A stretch of 64,000 nucleotides of DNA. Origin: Serinibacter salmoneus. Lineage in GTDB: Bacteria; Actinomycetota; Actinomycetes; Actinomycetales; Beutenbergiaceae. The position numbers were made by a program, and so were the translations under genes. Positions 46,032-53,628 of this stretch are shown in pieces. The stretch lies in the NCBI RefSeq assembly GCF_002563925.1, contig NZ_PDJD01000001.1, forward strand, positions 558,001-622,000, written 5' to 3'. Each line of letters begins with the position of its first letter. The first letter of the stretch is position 1. Under the pieces are notes generated by a model that was not told the DNA's origin, ran no database searches, and was given only the letters and a program-made list of their open reading frames with translations.

Positions 46032-47651
46032 ATGAGAACCGCGCACCGGGTGACGGACGTCGTCGACGCCGAGACGCCCCTGCTGGCAGCCGGGGTCCCG
46101 CTGATGGAGCGCGCCTCGTTCGCCCTCGCCCTCGCGGTCGCGAGTGACCTGCGCGCGCGGCGCGGCCGCGTGGTCGGAGCCAGGATCGGGGTCCTGGTGG
46201 GTGGCGGCAACAACGGGGGCGACGCCCTCATCGCCGCCGCCCACCTGGCGCGGCGCGGGGCGGCGGTGGAGATCGTGGGCGTCGGGCGGGCGATGCACGA
46301 GGCCGGTGCCGCGCGGGCGCGGGCGGCCGGGGCGCGGTTCCTGGACGCCGACCAGGACGCGGGCGAGCTCGCGGGGCGCCTCGCCGGCTGCGCGGCGCTG
46401 CTGGACGGCATCACGGGGATCGGCGCCTCCAGCGGCCTGCGCGGGCGGGCGCTGGAGGTCGTGACCGCGCTGCGAGGCGCCATGGCCTCCCGGCCACGTG
46501 GTGAGCGGCCCTGGGTCGTGGCGGTGGACGTGCCCAGCGGTGTGGGGGTGGACGACGGCGCGCTCCCCGAGGGCGTTCTCCCCGCCGACCGCACGGTCAC
46601 CATGGGCACCGCGAAGCCGGCACTGCTCCTGCCGCCGGCCGAGGTCGCGGCCGGGGAGGTGACCACGGTGGCGCTCGGCCTCGACCTGACGGGGGCGAGC
46701 CACGCCGTCGTGCGCCTCGAGGCGGGTGACCTCGCCGAGGAGTGGGCCGTTCCCGGACCGGCCGACCACAAGTACACCCGCGGCGTGCTCGGCATCGCCG
46801 CGGGGTCGGACACCTACCCCGGCGCTGCGGTGCTCGCCACGAGCGCGGCCGTGCGCGCGGGCGCGGGCATGGTCCGCTACGCCGGGCCCGACGCCGCGGC
46901 CGCCCAGGTGCTCACGCGGCACCCCGAGGTGGTGCGCGGACTGGGTGAGGCCGACCAGGTGGGCCGCGTGCAGGCGTGGCTGCTGGGCTCCGGGGTCGGG
47001 GCGGGGGACACCGAGCGCCTGGCGTGGCTGGAGCGGACCCTGACCCACGCCGTCGAGCGCGGGATCCCCGTGGTCGCCGACGCCGGGGCGCTCGCGGTGC
47101 TGCCCGAGCGGCTGCCCGCCACCGTGCTGCTCACGCCGCATGCCGGGGAGCTCGCGGGGCTGCTCGCCGCGCGCGACCCCCGCGCCGGCTGGGACCGTGC
47201 CCGGGTGGAGGCACTGCCGGTGCGGGCGCTGCGCCGCGCCGTGGACCTCACCGGGGCGACCGTGCTGCTCAAGGGCGCCACCACGCTGGTGGCCGGGCCG
47301 AGCGGGCCGGTCCACTCCCAGGCCGAGGCGACGCCGTGGCTCGGCACCGCCGGCGCCGGGGACGTGCTCGCCGGGCTCGCCGGGATGGTGCTCGCCTCCC
47401 GGGCGGGCGACCTCACGGGCGCCGGCGCCGATCCCGAACTCACCGCGCGGCTGGGGGCGGTGGCCGCCTCGGTGCACGGGCGCGCGGCGCGGCGGGCGGC
47501 CGGGGTGGAGGGGGCCGCAGGGGTGGAGGCGTCGAGGACCAGGCGTGCGCCAGCCGGCGGGTCGGTGGGTGGCCCGATCACGGCGCTCGACGTGGCCGAG
47601 GCGCTCCCGTCCGTGATCCGTGACCTGCTCGATGGGACACTGGGAGGGTGA
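46032..47651 (+). CDS. nnr: Bifunctional NAD(P)H-hydrate epimerase / ADP-dependent dehydratase
   Basis: 539 residues, two domains. Residues 1 to about 215 are the YjeF_N epimerase (RIGVLVGGGNNGGDALIAAA; VAVDVPSGVGVDDG). The rest is the carbohydrate-kinase-like dehydratase (TPHAGELAGLL; GATVLLKGATTLVAG; the GTAGAGDVLAGLAG phosphate-binding and Asp motif). Together they repair hydrated NADH/NADPH. The usual order acpS-nnr-alr-tsaE is kept on this side of the oxalate insertion. The stop overlaps alr (GTGA). An Ala/Arg-rich low-complexity stretch lies near residues 480-510. Confidence 0.92.
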   Translation: MRTAHRVTDVVDAETPLLAAGVPLMERASFALALAVASDLRARRGRVVGARIGVLVGGGNNGGDALIAAAHLARRGAAVEIVGVGRAMHEAGAARARAAGARFLDADQDAGELAGRLAGCAALLDGITGIGASSGLRGRALEVVTALRGAMASRPRGERPWVVAVDVPSGVGVDDGALPEGVLPADRTVTMGTAKPALLLPPAEVAAGEVTTVALGLDLTGASHAVVRLEAGDLAEEWAVPGPADHKYTRGVLGIAAGSDTYPGAAVLATSAAVRAGAGMVRYAGPDAAAAQVLTRHPEVVRGLGEADQVGRVQAWLLGSGVGAGDTERLAWLERTLTHAVERGIPVVADAGALAVLPERLPATVLLTPHAGELAGLLAARDPRAGWDRARVEALPVRALRRAVDLTGATVLLKGATTLVAGPSGPVHSQAEATPWLGTAGAGDVLAGLAGMVLASRAGDLTGAGADPELTARLGAVAASVHGRAARRAAGVEGAAGVEASRTRRAPAGGSVGGPITALDVAEALPSVIRDLLDGTLGG

Positions 47652-48808
47652 GCGACTACCCGGCACGCGCCCTGATCAACCTCGCGGCGATCCAGCGCAA
47701 CGTCGCCGCCCTGCGCGAGCGGGCCACCGCGCCGGTGATGGCCGTGGTCAAGGCGGACGCCTACGGGCACGGCCTGGTGCCCAGTGCCCGCGCGGCGCTG
47801 GCAGGCGGGGCGACCTGGCTCGGTGTGGCGCAACTGTCCGAGGCATTGGACCTGCGCGCCGCCGGGGTCGACGCGCCCCTGCTGACGTGGATCTACGCCC
47901 CCGGGGCACCGCTGGCGCGGGCCGTTCGGGCCGGTATCGACCTGTCGGTCGGGGCACCGTGGGCGCTCGCGGAGGTGCGCGCCGCCGTCGCCGCCACCGG
48001 GCGCACCGCCCGGATCCACCTCAAGGTCGACACCGGCCTCGGGCGCGGCGGGCAGTTCCTGCCCGCCTGGCGCGACATGCTCGACCAGGCCCTGCGCGCG
48101 CAGGCGGCCGGCGAGGTCGAGGTCGTCGGGGTGTGGTCGCACCTCGCCTCCGCGGAGGACGTCACCTCCGCCACCACCGCCTCCCAGCGCGAGGTGTTCC
48201 TGGAGGCGGTGGCGCTCGCCGAGGCAGGCGGCGCCCACCTGGAGCTGCGCCACCTGGCAAACTCCGCCGCGACCCTGGTGCGCCCGGACCTGCACTTCGA
48301 CCTGGTGCGGCCAGGGCTCGCCGTGTTCGGGCTCAGCCCGCTGCCCGGCGTGAGCGCCGGGGAGGTGGGCCTGGAGCCCGCGATGCGGCTGGAGGCCTCC
48401 CTCATGGTGGTCAAGCACGCGCCCGCCGGACAGGGCGTCAGCTACGGCCACACCTACACCACCACCGCGCAGACGGTCCTGGCCGACGTGCCACTGGGCT
48501 ACGCCGACGGGATCCCGCGGCACGCCGGGTCCGCAGGACCGGTCCAGGTGGCCGGGCGGCGGTACACGATCGCCGGCCGGGTCTGCATGGACCAGTTCGT
48601 GCTCGACCTCGGCGCCGACTCGAGCGCGGCCGCCGGGGACGTGGCGGTGCTGTTCGGCGCCGGCACCGACGGCGAACCCACCGCCCAGGACTGGGCCGAG
48701 GCCGCCGGGACCATCAGCTACGAGATCGTCACGCGACTCGGGGTGCGGGTGCCGCGCGTCCACCACCGCGACGGGGCGATCCAGCCCACCACCCAGAGGA
48801 CCCCATGA
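47648..48808 (+). CDS. alr: Alanine racemase
   Basis: 386 residues. It makes D-alanine for peptidoglycan. The PLP lysine is in MAVVKADAYGHGLVPSARAA; LKVDTGLGRGGQ and the second-domain catalytic Tyr region GVSYGHTYTTTAQTVLADVP, then GRVCMDQFVLDLG, are standard. GTG start coupled to nnr, and its stop overlaps the tsaE ATG (ATGA). Confidence 0.96.
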   Translation: MSDYPARALINLAAIQRNVAALRERATAPVMAVVKADAYGHGLVPSARAALAGGATWLGVAQLSEALDLRAAGVDAPLLTWIYAPGAPLARAVRAGIDLSVGAPWALAEVRAAVAATGRTARIHLKVDTGLGRGGQFLPAWRDMLDQALRAQAAGEVEVVGVWSHLASAEDVTSATTASQREVFLEAVALAEAGGAHLELRHLANSAATLVRPDLHFDLVRPGLAVFGLSPLPGVSAGEVGLEPAMRLEASLMVVKHAPAGQGVSYGHTYTTTAQTVLADVPLGYADGIPRHAGSAGPVQVAGRRYTIAGRVCMDQFVLDLGADSSAAAGDVAVLFGAGTDGEPTAQDWAEAAGTISYEIVTRLGVRVPRVHHRDGAIQPTTQRTP

Positions 48809-49299
48809 CTCAGACTCAGACCGCCATCGAGATCCATCTGCCCGACGCCGACGCCACCCGCGCCCTCGGCGCGGCGCTCGCCTCGCTGCTGCGCGCCGGC
48901 GACCTGCTCGTGCTCACCGGCGACCTCGGCGCCGGGAAGACCACGCTGACCCAGGGCATCGGCACCGGTCTCGGGGTGCGCGGTCAGGTCGCCTCGCCCA
49001 CCTTCGTCATCGCTCGCGAGCACCCACCGCTCGGGGAGGGCCCCGGCCTCGTGCACGTGGATGCCTACCGCCTCGGCGGCCTGGAGGAGCTCGACGCCCT
49101 CGACCTGGACTCCTCGCTGGAGGAGTCCGTCACGGTCGTGGAGTGGGGCGAGGGCCTCGCGGAGAACCTCAGCGACGACCGGCTGGAGGTGCGCATCGAT
49201 CGGGCCCGCGGGGACGAGGTCGAGCGCGGCCGCAGCGTGACGTTGGTCGCCGTGGGGGAGCGCTGGGCCGGCGTGGACCTCACCCCGCTGCGGGTCTGA
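48805..49299 (+). CDS. tsaE: tRNA t6A biosynthesis ATPase TsaE
   Basis: 164 residues. It drives the TsaB-TsaD threonylcarbamoyl transferase. Walker A is LTGDLGAGKTTLTQGIGTGL; SPTFVI, HVDAYRL and VVEWGEG are the remaining family motifs. It overlaps alr. tsaB and tsaD lie downstream, separated by repeats, a fusion gene and a nitroreductase. Confidence 0.95.
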   Translation: MTQTQTAIEIHLPDADATRALGAALASLLRAGDLLVLTGDLGAGKTTLTQGIGTGLGVRGQVASPTFVIAREHPPLGEGPGLVHVDAYRLGGLEELDALDLDSSLEESVTVVEWGEGLAENLSDDRLEVRIDRARGDEVERGRSVTLVAVGERWAGVDLTPLRV

Positions 49300-49410: not shown

Positions 49411-49502
49411 ACCTCCTGCCTCTGCCCGCCACCGAGCGTGCTGTTGTGCAGGCACCCTCTCGCCGAGCGGGTGGTTGTGCCGGGTTTCGGTGTTGCGGGG
49501 CT

Positions 49503-49563
49503 GCGTAACTCATCGTTCGGCGGGTATGGGGGCGGCGTAACTCATCGTTCGGCGGGTATGGGG
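49503..49563. repeat. Two 29-bp direct repeats upstream of tsaB
   Basis: An identical 29-bp unit at 49503-49531 and 49535-49563 (core AACTCATCGTTCGGCGGGTA), 3 bp apart, period 32 bp, about three helical turns. It ends 18 bp before the tsaB -10, so it covers the region where an activator or repressor would bind. Confidence 0.75.
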
Positions 49564-49593: not shown

Positions 49594-50274
49594 GTGGCCA
49601 CGATCCTCGCCCTCGACACCTCCTCCGGCAGCGCCGTCGCCCTCGTGCGCGACGGCGTGACGCTCGCGAGCGCGAGCAGTCCCGACCCGCGGGGGCACGC
49701 CGAGCGCCTGACGCCCCTGGTCGCCGGCGTCCTCGAGGAGGCGAGTGTCGGCATCGGTGATCTCGACGCGATCGCCGTGGGCACCGGTCCCGCTCCCTTC
49801 ACCGGTCTGCGCGTGGGGCTCGTGACCGCCGCCATGCTCGCCCGGCCCCGCGACCTGCCGGTGTGGGGGGTGCCGAGCCTGGACGCATGGGCCGCGGGCG
49901 TCGCGGCCCACGCACCCGAGGGTCTCTCCGAGGTGCGCATCGTCACCGATGCGCGCCGCAAGGAGGTCTACACCGCGCGTTACCGCCTCGAGCCCGGGAG
50001 CGCCGGCGGGATCCGCCTGAGCGAGCCCCACGCCGTCGTGCGCTCCGCCGGCCTGGCGGCCACGGGTGAGGCGGTGGCCGGACCTGGCACCGACCTGTAC
50101 CCGCAGGAGTTCGCCGCGGCCCGCGTGCTCGCGGCGAGCTTCGACGTCTCCCAGATCGCGCTGCTCGCCGCGGCGCGGGTGGAGCGCGGCGAGGCGGTAC
50201 CGACCGAACCGCTGTACCTGCGGCGACCCGATATCCACGGCAAGCCCGCCTCGGCGATGGCGGGCGGCCGATGA
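49594..50274 (+). CDS. tsaB: tRNA t6A biosynthesis protein TsaB
   Basis: 226 residues. It is the inactive-kinase partner that scaffolds TsaD and TsaE. ILALDTSSGSAVALVRDG, GTGPAPFTGLRVGLVTA and VTDARRKEVYTARY are family blocks. GTG start, no ribosome-binding site, and a promoter-like hexamer just before it. The stop overlaps the next ATG (ATGA). Confidence 0.93.
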   Translation: MATILALDTSSGSAVALVRDGVTLASASSPDPRGHAERLTPLVAGVLEEASVGIGDLDAIAVGTGPAPFTGLRVGLVTAAMLARPRDLPVWGVPSLDAWAAGVAAHAPEGLSEVRIVTDARRKEVYTARYRLEPGSAGGIRLSEPHAVVRSAGLAATGEAVAGPGTDLYPQEFAAARVLAASFDVSQIALLAAARVERGEAVPTEPLYLRRPDIHGKPASAMAGGR

Positions 50275-51677
50275 GGCTGCGGCCGCTCACGCCCGAGGAC
50301 CTCACCACGGTGATGGACCTCGAGGCGGTGCTGTTCGGCGCGGGCTCATGGTCCCGGGCCTCCTACGAGGCCGAACTCGCTCACCCCGGCAAGACCTACG
50401 TCGCCGCGGTGGAGGACGAGGACCCCACAGTGTTGCTCGGCTGGGCCGGCGTGGCGCTCGACCCGGAGTGGACGGTCACCACCATCGGGGTCTCCCCGCA
50501 CGCCCAGCGCCGCGGCGTGGGAACGGCGCTGCTGGACGCCCTGATCGCGGCGGTCCGCGAGGCCGGTGGCGAGGAGTTGTTCCTCGAGGTGCGCGCGAAC
50601 GACGGCGCCGCCGCCCAGATGTACCGCAACGCCGGGTTCTCCCCGGTGGCGCTGCGGCGCAAGTACTACCAGCCCGAGGGGCTGGACGCGGTGGTGATGC
50701 GGTTGCCGCTCGCGCCCTCCCGCACGGCCGGCGTCGGGCCGGTGGGGGCCGAGGCCACCCTGCCACCGGCCGAGCCCCAGACGCCGACGACGGCGCCGAC
50801 GCCGCCGCCGCCGATCGCCCCCGCCTTCGTGGATGTCACCGCGGTGCGTCGCGCGGTGTGGAGCCCGCACGCACCCGTCCTGCTGGACGTCCGCTGGGCC
50901 CTCGGGCGCAGTGATGGGCGCGAGTCCTACCTCGCCGGGCACCTGCCGGGCGCCGTGTTCGTGGACCTGGAGACCGAGCTGGCGGCACCCGCCTCACCCG
51001 CGCTCGGGCGGCACCCGCTGCCGACCACCGCAACCCTGCAGGAGGCCGCGCGCCGCTGGGGCATCACCGCGCAGCGGGACGTGGTGGTGTACGACGACGC
51101 CGGCGGCACCTCCGCGGCCCGCGCCTGGTGGCTGCTGCGCGCCGCCGGCGTGAGGAGGGTCTCGATCCTGGACGGCGGCCTGCGCGCCTGGGTGGCGGCG
51201 GGGGAGCACCTCGAGGAGGGCGCGGTGCGCCCACGACCGGGCGACATCACCCTCGAGGACCCCGCAGCGGGAGCGCACCTGGCGGTGGTGGATGCCGACG
51301 GCGCGGCGGCGCTGGCCGCCTCGGCCGACGGCGTCCTCCTGGACGCGCGGGCGGGCGAGCGATTCCGCGGTGAGGTGGAGCCGGTCGATCCGCGAGCGGG
51401 CCACATCCCGGGCGCCGTGAGCGCGCCGACCACCGAGAACCTCACCGGCGACGGGCACCTGCGGGCGGACCTGCGGGACCGCTTCGCCGCCCTCGGGGTG
51501 GTGGCGCAGGCGCACGACGCCGCAGCCGAGGTCGCGGTGTACTGCGGTTCAGGCGTCACCGCGTCCCACACCGTCGCGGTGCTGGCCTCGCTCGGCATCG
51601 ACGCTGCGCTCTACCCCGGATCGTTCTCCCAGTGGAGCAACGATCCCGACCGCGAGGTCGCCGCCGGGCCCGCCTGA
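50271..51677 (+). CDS. RimI-type N-acetyltransferase fused to a tandem-rhodanese sulfurtransferase
   Basis: One uninterrupted 468-residue frame. Residues 1 to about 145 are RimI (GNAT): LRPLTPEDLTTVMDLEAVLF, the acetyl-CoA loop QRRGVGTALLDA at 79-90 and YRNAGFSPVALRRKYY at 118-133; RimI acetylates the N-terminus of ribosomal protein S18. Residues 146-186 are a Pro/Thr/Ala linker. Residues 187 to about 315 are a non-catalytic rhodanese domain (HLPGAVFVDLETEL; DGGLRAW), and about 338-468 a catalytic one with CGSGVTA at 425-431, the loop type of 3-mercaptopyruvate sulfurtransferases. The ATG overlaps the tsaB stop. RimI is normally a stand-alone protein of about 150 residues between tsaB and tsaD. 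No frameshift or good internal start separates the halves. Confidence 0.88.
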   Translation: MRLRPLTPEDLTTVMDLEAVLFGAGSWSRASYEAELAHPGKTYVAAVEDEDPTVLLGWAGVALDPEWTVTTIGVSPHAQRRGVGTALLDALIAAVREAGGEELFLEVRANDGAAAQMYRNAGFSPVALRRKYYQPEGLDAVVMRLPLAPSRTAGVGPVGAEATLPPAEPQTPTTAPTPPPPIAPAFVDVTAVRRAVWSPHAPVLLDVRWALGRSDGRESYLAGHLPGAVFVDLETELAAPASPALGRHPLPTTATLQEAARRWGITAQRDVVVYDDAGGTSAARAWWLLRAAGVRRVSILDGGLRAWVAAGEHLEEGAVRPRPGDITLEDPAAGAHLAVVDADGAAALAASADGVLLDARAGERFRGEVEPVDPRAGHIPGAVSAPTTENLTGDGHLRADLRDRFAALGVVAQAHDAAAEVAVYCGSGVTASHTVAVLASLGIDAALYPGSFSQWSNDPDREVAAGPA

Positions 51678-51735: not shown

Positions 51736-52344
51736 CTACAGCGTGCGGACGGCGAGCTCCGCATCCAGGCGTGGTGCACGCGGGTGCGCTCCGCCGTCGG
51801 CCATCCCCCACCCGAGGTTGAGCACCAGCAGGCTGCGCCACCCCGACCCGGCGAAGAACGCGGCGTCCACCCCGGCGGCGTCGAAGCCCGCCATCGGCCC
51901 CACCTGGAGACCACGGGAGCGCAGCGTGGGGATCAGGTAGCCGATCTGGATCAGCGCGTTGGTGCGGGCGAATGCGGCCCGCTGCTCCGGGTTCTCGGCC
52001 AACTGCGCCGCCCACGCGGCGCGGTGGGGCGCCAGCAGCGGGATCTGCTCGTGGAAGTCGGAGTCGGCGGCGGCGATCACCACCAGCGGCGCCGCCACGG
52101 TCTTGTCCCGATTGCCGGCGCTCATGTGCGGCGCCAGGGCCTCCCGCGCCTGGCCCTGCGGAACCACGGCGAGGCGCAGGGGAGAGGCGTTCATTGCCGT
52201 CGGCCCCCACTTGATCACCTCGTAGGCCGCGTACACCTCGGCGGGATCCACCTCGCCCCCGGTGAAGTGGTTCACCGTGCGGCCCTCGGTGAAGAGGGCA
52301 GCGACGATCTCGGACTCCTGCGTAGTGGTCGACTCGGCGGTCAT
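51736..52344 (-). CDS. Nitroreductase-family flavoprotein, RutE/HadB-like
   Basis: 202 residues from the ATG at 52344 (GAGGGA lies 11 nt upstream); a longer GTG start at 52398 is possible. LFTEGRTVNHFTGGEVDPAE, VIKWGPTAMNASPLRLAVVP and VGPMAGFDAAGVDAAFF follow the order in E. coli RutE, which reduces malonic semialdehyde with NAD(P)H and FMN. No other rut pyrimidine genes are here, so the physiological substrate is open. It runs against the flanking tsaB-rimI and tsaD genes, breaking a normally collinear block. Confidence 0.83.
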   Translation of the reverse strand: MTAESTTTQESEIVAALFTEGRTVNHFTGGEVDPAEVYAAYEVIKWGPTAMNASPLRLAVVPQGQAREALAPHMSAGNRDKTVAAPLVVIAAADSDFHEQIPLLAPHRAAWAAQLAENPEQRAAFARTNALIQIGYLIPTLRSRGLQVGPMAGFDAAGVDAAFFAGSGWRSLLVLNLGWGMADGGAHPRAPRLDAELAVRTL

Positions 52345-52413
52345 GATCTGGGCAATCCCTCGTGGTGGCGGAGTATTCCGCGCCGTGGCGCGTGTCACAG
52401 ATCCCGGCGCCGG

Positions 52414-52427: not shown

Positions 52428-53483
52428 GTGACTGAACCCCTCGTTCTCGGTATCGAGTCCACCTGTGATGAGACCGGCATCGCCCTGGTGCGCGGCCGCG
52501 AGCTGCTCGCCGACGTCACGGCCACCTCGATGGACGAGCACGCGCGCTACGGCGGGATCGTGCCGGAGGTCGCCTCGCGCGCCCACCTCGAGGCGCTGCG
52601 CCCCACCCTGGACGAGGCGCTGAACCGCGCCGGGGTGGACCTGGGCGATGTGGAGGCCGTGGCCGTCGCCGCCGGCCCGGGCCTGGTGGGCTCACTGACG
52701 GTGGGGACCGCCGGGGCGAAGGCGCTCGCGCTCTCCCTGGGGGTGCCGCTGTACGGCGTCAACCACGTGGTGGGCCACGCCGCCGTCGACGAACTGGTGC
52801 ACGGCGCGTTCCCGGAGCGATTCCTCGCGCTGGTGGTCTCCGGCGGGCACTCCTCGCTGCTGCTGGTCAACGACATCGCCACCGACGTGGTCGAGCTCGG
52901 GCAGACCATCGACGACGCCGCGGGGGAGGCGTTCGACAAGGTGGGTCGCCTGCTGGGCCTGCCCTACCCCGGCGGGCCGCACGTGGACCGGCTCGCGAAG
53001 GAGGGCGATCCGGCGGCTATCGCGTTCCCGCGCGGCCTGTCCAAGGGCAAGGAGCTCGCGCGCCACCCCTACGACTTCTCCTTCTCCGGCCTGAAGACGG
53101 CCGTGGCGCGCTACCTGGAGGCCCACGAGGCCTCGGGAGAGGCGTACTCGCGGGCCGACGTCGCCGCCTCCTTCTCCGAGGCGGTCGCCGATGTGCTGGT
53201 CACCAAGACCCTGCGGGCATGCGCCGCCTACGACGCCTCCACGCTGGTGATCGGGGGTGGGTTCTCGGCGAACTCGCGGCTGCGGGAGCTCGCCGCGCAG
53301 CGGTGTGAGGAGGCCGGGGTGGAGGTGCGGATCCCGCCGATCCGGTACTGCACCGACAACGGCGCGATGATCGCGGCGCTCGGCTCCGCGGTGGCGCGCG
53401 CCGGCCTGCCCGCCTCGCCGTGGGACCTGCCGGTGGACTCCCAGATGCCGCTGGGCGTCACGGTGGTGCCGCCCGCCGCCTAA
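52428..53483 (+). CDS. tsaD: tRNA N6-adenosine threonylcarbamoyltransferase TsaD
   Basis: 351 residues from the GTG at 52428 ([20 protein letters not shown]), chosen by family start and spacing from TAGGCT; a GTG two codons upstream would be too close. The metal site [12 protein letters not shown] (HXXXH) and the substrate motif [11 protein letters not shown] are intact, as are [19 protein letters not shown] and SFSGLKTAV. With TsaB and TsaE it makes t6A37 in ANN-decoding tRNAs. A repeat array begins 4 bp after the stop. Confidence 0.95.
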
Positions 53484-53486
53484 ACG

Positions 53487-53618
53487 CCGCGAGGTGGTTC
53501 TGCGGGTACCGCGTGGCAACTCTGCGGGCGCCGCGAGGCGGTTCTGCAGGCACCGCGAGGCAACTCTGCAGGTACCGCGAGGCGGTTCTGCAGGCGCCGC
53601 GAGGCAACTCTGCAGGTG
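53487..53618. repeat. Array of six 22-bp tandem repeats in two alternating versions
   Basis: Six exact-length 22-bp units without spacers. Units 1, 3 and 5 have the form CCGCGAGGCGGTTCTGCAGG plus two bases; units 2, 4 and 6 have CAAC in place of CGGT (CCGCGAGGCAACTCTGCAGG). The true period is therefore 44 bp, repeated three times. Unit 1 and unit 2 have slightly diverged. Each late copy contains CTGCAG. Two more copies in inverted orientation lie at 54307-54348. Confidence 0.9.
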
Positions 53619-53628
53619 CCACCTGTGC

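Follow-up and report, generated by a model that had tools for sequence, protein, structure and literature searches.

A RimI–sulfurtransferase gene fusion in the t6A gene block of Serinibacter salmoneus and its relatives, best read as two independent enzymes in one chain

The fusion gene and its surroundings

In the window of Serinibacter salmoneus DNA analysed here (the whole stretch of 64,000 nucleotides, whose numbering is used below), a RimI N-acetyltransferase and a tandem-rhodanese 3-mercaptopyruvate sulfurtransferase (MST) are read as one protein inside the t6A gene block, raising the question of whether the joining is real, how it came about and whether the two enzymes work together. 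The rimI–MST gene (50271..51677, + strand) is a single intact open reading frame of 468 codons, and its ATG overlaps the tsaB stop codon as ATGA; reading of the frames and of the sequence bears out what the first-pass annotation had described here.

Upstream on the same strand lie alr, encoding alanine racemase (47648..48808; TIGR00492, 305 bits, over cutoff), tsaE (48805..49299), named from the block order, its position being the same in each of the 84 loci that have both rimI and MST, and tsaB (49594..50274; TIGR03725, 161 bits, over cutoff). Downstream lies tsaD (52431..53483, +; TIGR03723, 402 bits, over cutoff), separated from the fusion by an opposite-strand gene for a malonic semialdehyde reductase-type nitroreductase (51736..52398, −; PRK05365, 212 bits, over cutoff). 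The placement within the t6A block thus stands, with this one gene intervening before tsaD. The malonic semialdehyde reductase gene is found between rimI–MST and tsaD in 6 of the 24 genomes of the window's family, Beutenbergiaceae (f1, including Serinibacter arcticus by NCBI placement), these being the six members of the window's fused clade; in another family, f9, it lies close to the block in 15/19 genomes (first set). Two repeats were also observed: a 32-base unit present twice between tsaE and tsaB (49497-49563), the core of which occurs nowhere else in the window, and, directly after tsaD (53485-53620), a 44-base unit with 22-base half-units, repeated about three times.

GC3 was 0.88-1.00 in each of nine blocks spanning the fusion gene, linker included, and so gives no hint of a shift in frame; the frameshift that had been named as the finding that would split the two halves is not indicated. 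Since 10 further Beutenbergiaceae genomes have the same in-frame architecture, an error of sequencing is very unlikely. That an artefact of sequencing or assembly joined two genes is hardly conceivable, the rarity of the architecture being the sole point in its favour: against it stand the steady GC3, the presence of the fusion in 15 genomes from eight genera, the total found, and its presence in the assembly of Serinibacter arcticus K3-2. The joining is a genuine, inherited gene fusion.

Two complete halves and a variable linker

The RimI domain comprises residues 1-147 (50271..50711, +). Residues 10-143 match NCBIfam TIGR01575 at 87.2 bits, narrowly over the curated cutoff of 86.4, which upholds the earlier naming of the domain; in the scan of the own genome the fusion scored 90.8 bits and was the only one of 14 matches over the cutoff. 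Glu106 and Tyr118, which we take to be the catalytic residues, align with the Glu and Tyr of Salmonella RimI (2cnm) and are invariant in 12/12 aligned fused proteins, and the LEV...Y...GF stretch is also kept in the remaining three of the 15 fused proteins. The window protein therefore resembles RimI in its domain and in these aligned residues, and differs from 2cnm in bearing a C-terminal MST. RimI prefers Ala N-termini as substrates of acetylation; ribosomal protein S18 encoded in the own genome starts Met-Ala-Lys (MAKP), a predicted start that is compatible, and no more, with acetylation by the RimI half.

The C-terminal half contains a first, cysteine-free rhodanese domain (50874..51197, +) and a second one with the CGSGVTA loop (51312..51641, +; genome C1:609312-609641), both matching PF00581, and the codon of Cys425, the only cysteine of the protein, is TGC at 51543..51545 (+); the two domains and the loop are as first annotated. 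Residues 217-461 match PRK11493 (MST) at 145 bits, below the 250-bit equivalog cutoff, so the name MST is given by fold and loop and not as that equivalog. The best solved relative is E. coli SseA (1urh, E 4.9e-37); SseA and human MPST (4jgt) were also recovered in a fold search, at 32-34% identity, and the CGSGVTA loop is common to the fusion, 1urh and 5wqj. The half is thus like these MSTs in its tandem rhodanese domains and loop, and unlike them in its N-terminal RimI and its sub-cutoff PRK11493 score. Cys425, Arg364 and Arg375, the latter two presumably the substrate-binding arginines, are invariant in 12/12 aligned fused proteins, and CGSGVTA is also kept in the other three. Of the nine rhodanese stretches detected in the own genome, the fusion and a second tandem protein hold two each, and five further proteins hold one each. 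Apart from the fusion, the six proteins have the loops CRIGERS, CASGMRS, CAVGFRS, CRSGGRS, CRSGNRS and CSAGIRA, and CGSGVTA is absent from all six.

Between the halves lies a linker rich in Pro, Thr and Ala (residues 148-184; 50712..50822, +), close to the Pro/Thr linker of some 40 residues noted before, with pLDDT below 50 at residues 153-167. It is the least conserved part of the 12 fused proteins, with an identity of 0.39 compared with 0.60 for RimI and 0.67 for MST. Within it VGPVGAEA (residues 155-162; 50733..50756, +) represents what was once the tail motif at the C-terminus of RimI. A GPVGAE-like tail motif is found in 21/24 Beutenbergiaceae genomes, in the genome of a third family, f13, and in 3/19 f9 genomes (first set); several split Beutenbergiaceae genomes end RimI with GPVG(A/S)EA-IEE, of which the GAGGAG codons could act as Shine-Dalgarno sequence for MST, and the fused proteins of this family retain the tail inside the linker. 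It is a possible short binding motif. As a docking signal for MST it was rejected, since 16/19 f9 genomes (first set) have MST adjacent and no motif, and since AlphaFold leaves the motif disordered. In three genomes of genus g8 (loci L083, L084 and L085; G012, G007 and G016) rimI and MST are separated by 5.5-7.1 kb of other DNA, and these genomes have lost the tail motif.

AlphaFold predicted the window protein (69 rows) with a mean pLDDT of 91.6 and a pTM of 0.84, and the independent fusion of G184, an f9 genome, with a mean pLDDT of 90.4 and a pTM of 0.65. A rough formula predicts about 0.55 if the domains float and 0.74-0.76 if they are docked. Judged by pTM alone, the model suggests that the halves of the window protein are docked; the value of G184 falls between the floating and docked expectations, nearer the floating one.

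Distribution and repeated origin

Comparison of this locus among relatives, as had been proposed, showed that the fusion is inherited, being present in 11/24 Beutenbergiaceae genomes. Split relatives have the gene order alr-tsaE-tsaB-rimI-MST-tsaD, and MST is downstream of rimI in all 24 genomes of the family, adjoining or fused in 21 and apart in 3. In f9 the fusion was found in at least 4 of 221 genomes (G184, G842, G837 and G865), a lower bound drawn from the seven genomes with full-length matches at E <= 1e-95, three of which hold an in-frame TGA and were classed as split. Here rimI and MST share one block in 59/60 fetched loci, in two of which the genes lie 1.3 kb apart; in the remaining locus, of G228, the best MST lies outside the block, and it was left out of the 84-genome set. 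One of the two f13 genomes was matched, in the split state, and the other (G052, 88% complete) gave no match. Over the three families rimI and MST thus stand in one block in 84/85 fetched loci. The order scan gave at least 396 genomes among the matches listed to about E 1e-74 and the class scan at least 394 among the matches listed at E <= 1e-75, a few of the latter reaching as far as the RimI part of the query (e.g. G647 and G479).

Around MST in other families, alr, tsaE, tsaB and rimI were not seen in any of 14 fetched loci (one stretch being 3.2 kb); at one of them, of G206, tsaD was matched on the opposite strand at a distance of about 4 kb. At 20 rimI loci of other families, tsaD follows rimI within 50 bases in 12, is 0.6-1.6 kb away in four and was not seen within the fetched stretch in four.

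Fused and split states are mixed within genera, with five fused and three split genomes in g6, and two of each among the genomes read in g229. Five loci are near-fusions, in which MST is in frame with rimI but the RimI part is followed by a TGA (L177, L178 and L179 of G797, G796 and G864; L080 and L086 of G022 and G020). Local deviations were also seen: L099 and L100 (G093 and G031) have no tsaD match within the 12 kb stretch and keep the other gene order, and L118 (G285) has tsaD on the opposite strand with the remaining order kept.

An MST start codon is at −4 to the rimI stop in 17/32 split loci (first set); loose counts of NTGA at stops, which take no account of frame, were set aside. On the 84-genome tree, a quick tree without bootstraps to which the RimI and MST domains also contributed, the fusion state needs five changes, five being forced by starred branches. 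By parsimony this would correspond to four or five independent gains, four being the cautious count because G865 and G184 may share one gain, with loss in G320/G106. AU tests on a 44-genome tree, likewise quick and without bootstraps but made with the columns of RimI and MST left out, rejected a single fused clade (p 1.1e-4, 12 rows) and one clade for the 11 Beutenbergiaceae fusions (p 7e-37).

Fusion in this operon is not restricted to rimI and MST. In 5/84 genomes alr and tsaE are in one open frame (L087, L089, L090, L091 and L092; G010, G018, G014, G003 and G002), with two separate changes on the tree; functionally unrelated neighbours fuse in this operon too. The pairs tsaE-tsaB and tsaB-rimI share one frame in 0/84 genomes. 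The rimI–MST junction accounts for 5/7 changes over four junctions (binomial 0.013 if all are equal, 0.038 without the window's own event), to be read with the facts that this junction was picked because it is fused, that match score played a part in the choice of genomes and that the four junctions may differ in their tolerance of fusion. The excess hints at more than chance, which is suggestive only.

We propose that in an ancestor of these families an MST gene would have come to stand after rimI and before tsaD, often with a start codon that overlapped the stop of rimI, and that loss of this stop in frame with MST in four or five lineages would have left the variable linker.

Independent enzymes or a coupled module

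The product would be one bifunctional chain. From the residues retained, the N-terminal half most likely acetylates the N-terminus of S18 like a stand-alone RimI, and the C-terminal MST probably loads Cys425 with sulfur taken from 3-mercaptopyruvate, which it then hands on to soluble acceptors. Independent action of the two sites is most likely, and the gain, if any, may be that both enzymes are made in equal amounts from one start. An inherited, repeatedly arisen fusion of two independently acting enzymes is in our judgement the probable explanation. The active residues retained in both halves of 12/12 aligned fused proteins speak for it; the repeated fusion at the same junction and the pTM of the window protein, above the floating value, speak against it. 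Of the two inferences offered by the first-pass annotation, co-expression of two unrelated enzymes fits best and the tie to sulfur supply is unsupported: the window protein has one cysteine, no cysteine is conserved in the RimI halves, S18 has none, and MST is away from tsaB-rimI in all 14 genomes fetched from other families. An intrachain sulfur relay from MST to RimI was rejected for want of a conserved cysteine in the RimI half, where 4/12 aligned fused proteins have one extra cysteine each, at three different positions. Sulfur transfer onto S18 was rejected as well, the S18 of the own genome having no cysteine, and so was a partner shared with MST elsewhere, because ten neighbours at six other-family loci showed no recurring family (one is a PLP-dependent enzyme and one had no match). 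Sulfur supply in trans is possible, MnmA being encoded in the own genome (284 bits, over cutoff).

A functional module was weighed against this, in which the MST persulfide feeds a translation-related acceptor positioned by RimI, in tRNA thiolation or on a ribosomal or t6A protein, and the fusion hardens an existing complex. The same pair was fused repeatedly and is kept in one block almost throughout the three families, and the pTM of the window protein and the presence of MnmA agree with such a module. t6A itself contains no sulfur. Eukaryotic MST/TUM1 serves tRNA thiolation (PMC5372717, PMC9856076), and a protein-fragment complementation assay showed an interaction of M. tuberculosis RimI with TsaD (PMC4926160). 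We nevertheless consider the module unlikely, since neither the RimI half of the window protein nor its S18 offers a cysteine, the pTM of G184 is nearer the floating value, MST lies apart from tsaB-rimI in the genomes fetched from other families and shows no shared partner among the ten neighbours scanned there, and MST persulfidates proteins to which it is not fused (PMC10060159). The narrower proposal that RimI and MST are physical partners here, and that the fused complex would bring a carrier of persulfide to the ribosome or to the t6A machinery, is considered rather improbable. Another possibility is that a start within the linker yields free MST alongside the long form, so that the fusion is partly nominal. 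Five fused g6 genomes have GAGGA/AGGAGG no more than 16 bases before an in-frame linker ATG located at the old MST start, and these relatives may still produce free MST, to judge from their sequence; in the window's clade, GGAGG precedes an ATG in G009, and GGAG (G004) and GAGG (G013) precede a GTG. The four in-frame GTG codons of the window linker, however, were all without a Shine-Dalgarno sequence in the scan, and the stricter scan found no site in four f9 fusions, although a looser one gave GGAG before a GTG in G184. An internal start appears a poor candidate, and two independent enzymes in one chain is the reading we prefer.

Comparable fusions are known. TsaB-RimI fusions occur in M. leprae, Bordetella and Neisseria (PMC4926160, PMC5335608); RimI is there likewise joined to a neighbour from the t6A block of the operon, but that neighbour is TsaB, which flanks RimI on its opposite side, a state seen in 0/84 genomes here. 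MOCS3 (PMC5372717) consists of a MoeB-like domain and a rhodanese domain, and so also joins a rhodanese domain to another enzyme; its rhodanese gives sulfur to the product of the partner, whereas the window chain shows no acceptor. Halobacteria have a rhodanese domain fused to NirA, not RimI (PMC11237513). As far as their accessible text goes, the nearest papers (PMC11237513, PMC12419801, PMC2948915) contain no RimI-rhodanese fusion, and none is named in the open-licence literature searched, in agreement with the earlier statement that the architecture was not known as described. RimI–MST is a new domain architecture, added to both RimI and MST and best read as two independent enzymes in one chain. 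The relatives form a natural series, from overlapping genes through in-frame neighbours one stop apart to fusions with and without a remnant start, and the fused and split species within g6 and g229 are natural pairs for testing the effect of the fusion on either enzyme. If RimI and MST are physical partners, cysteine-sulfur status would be linked to translation, and cooperation of the halves, if real, would tie sulfur metabolism to it.
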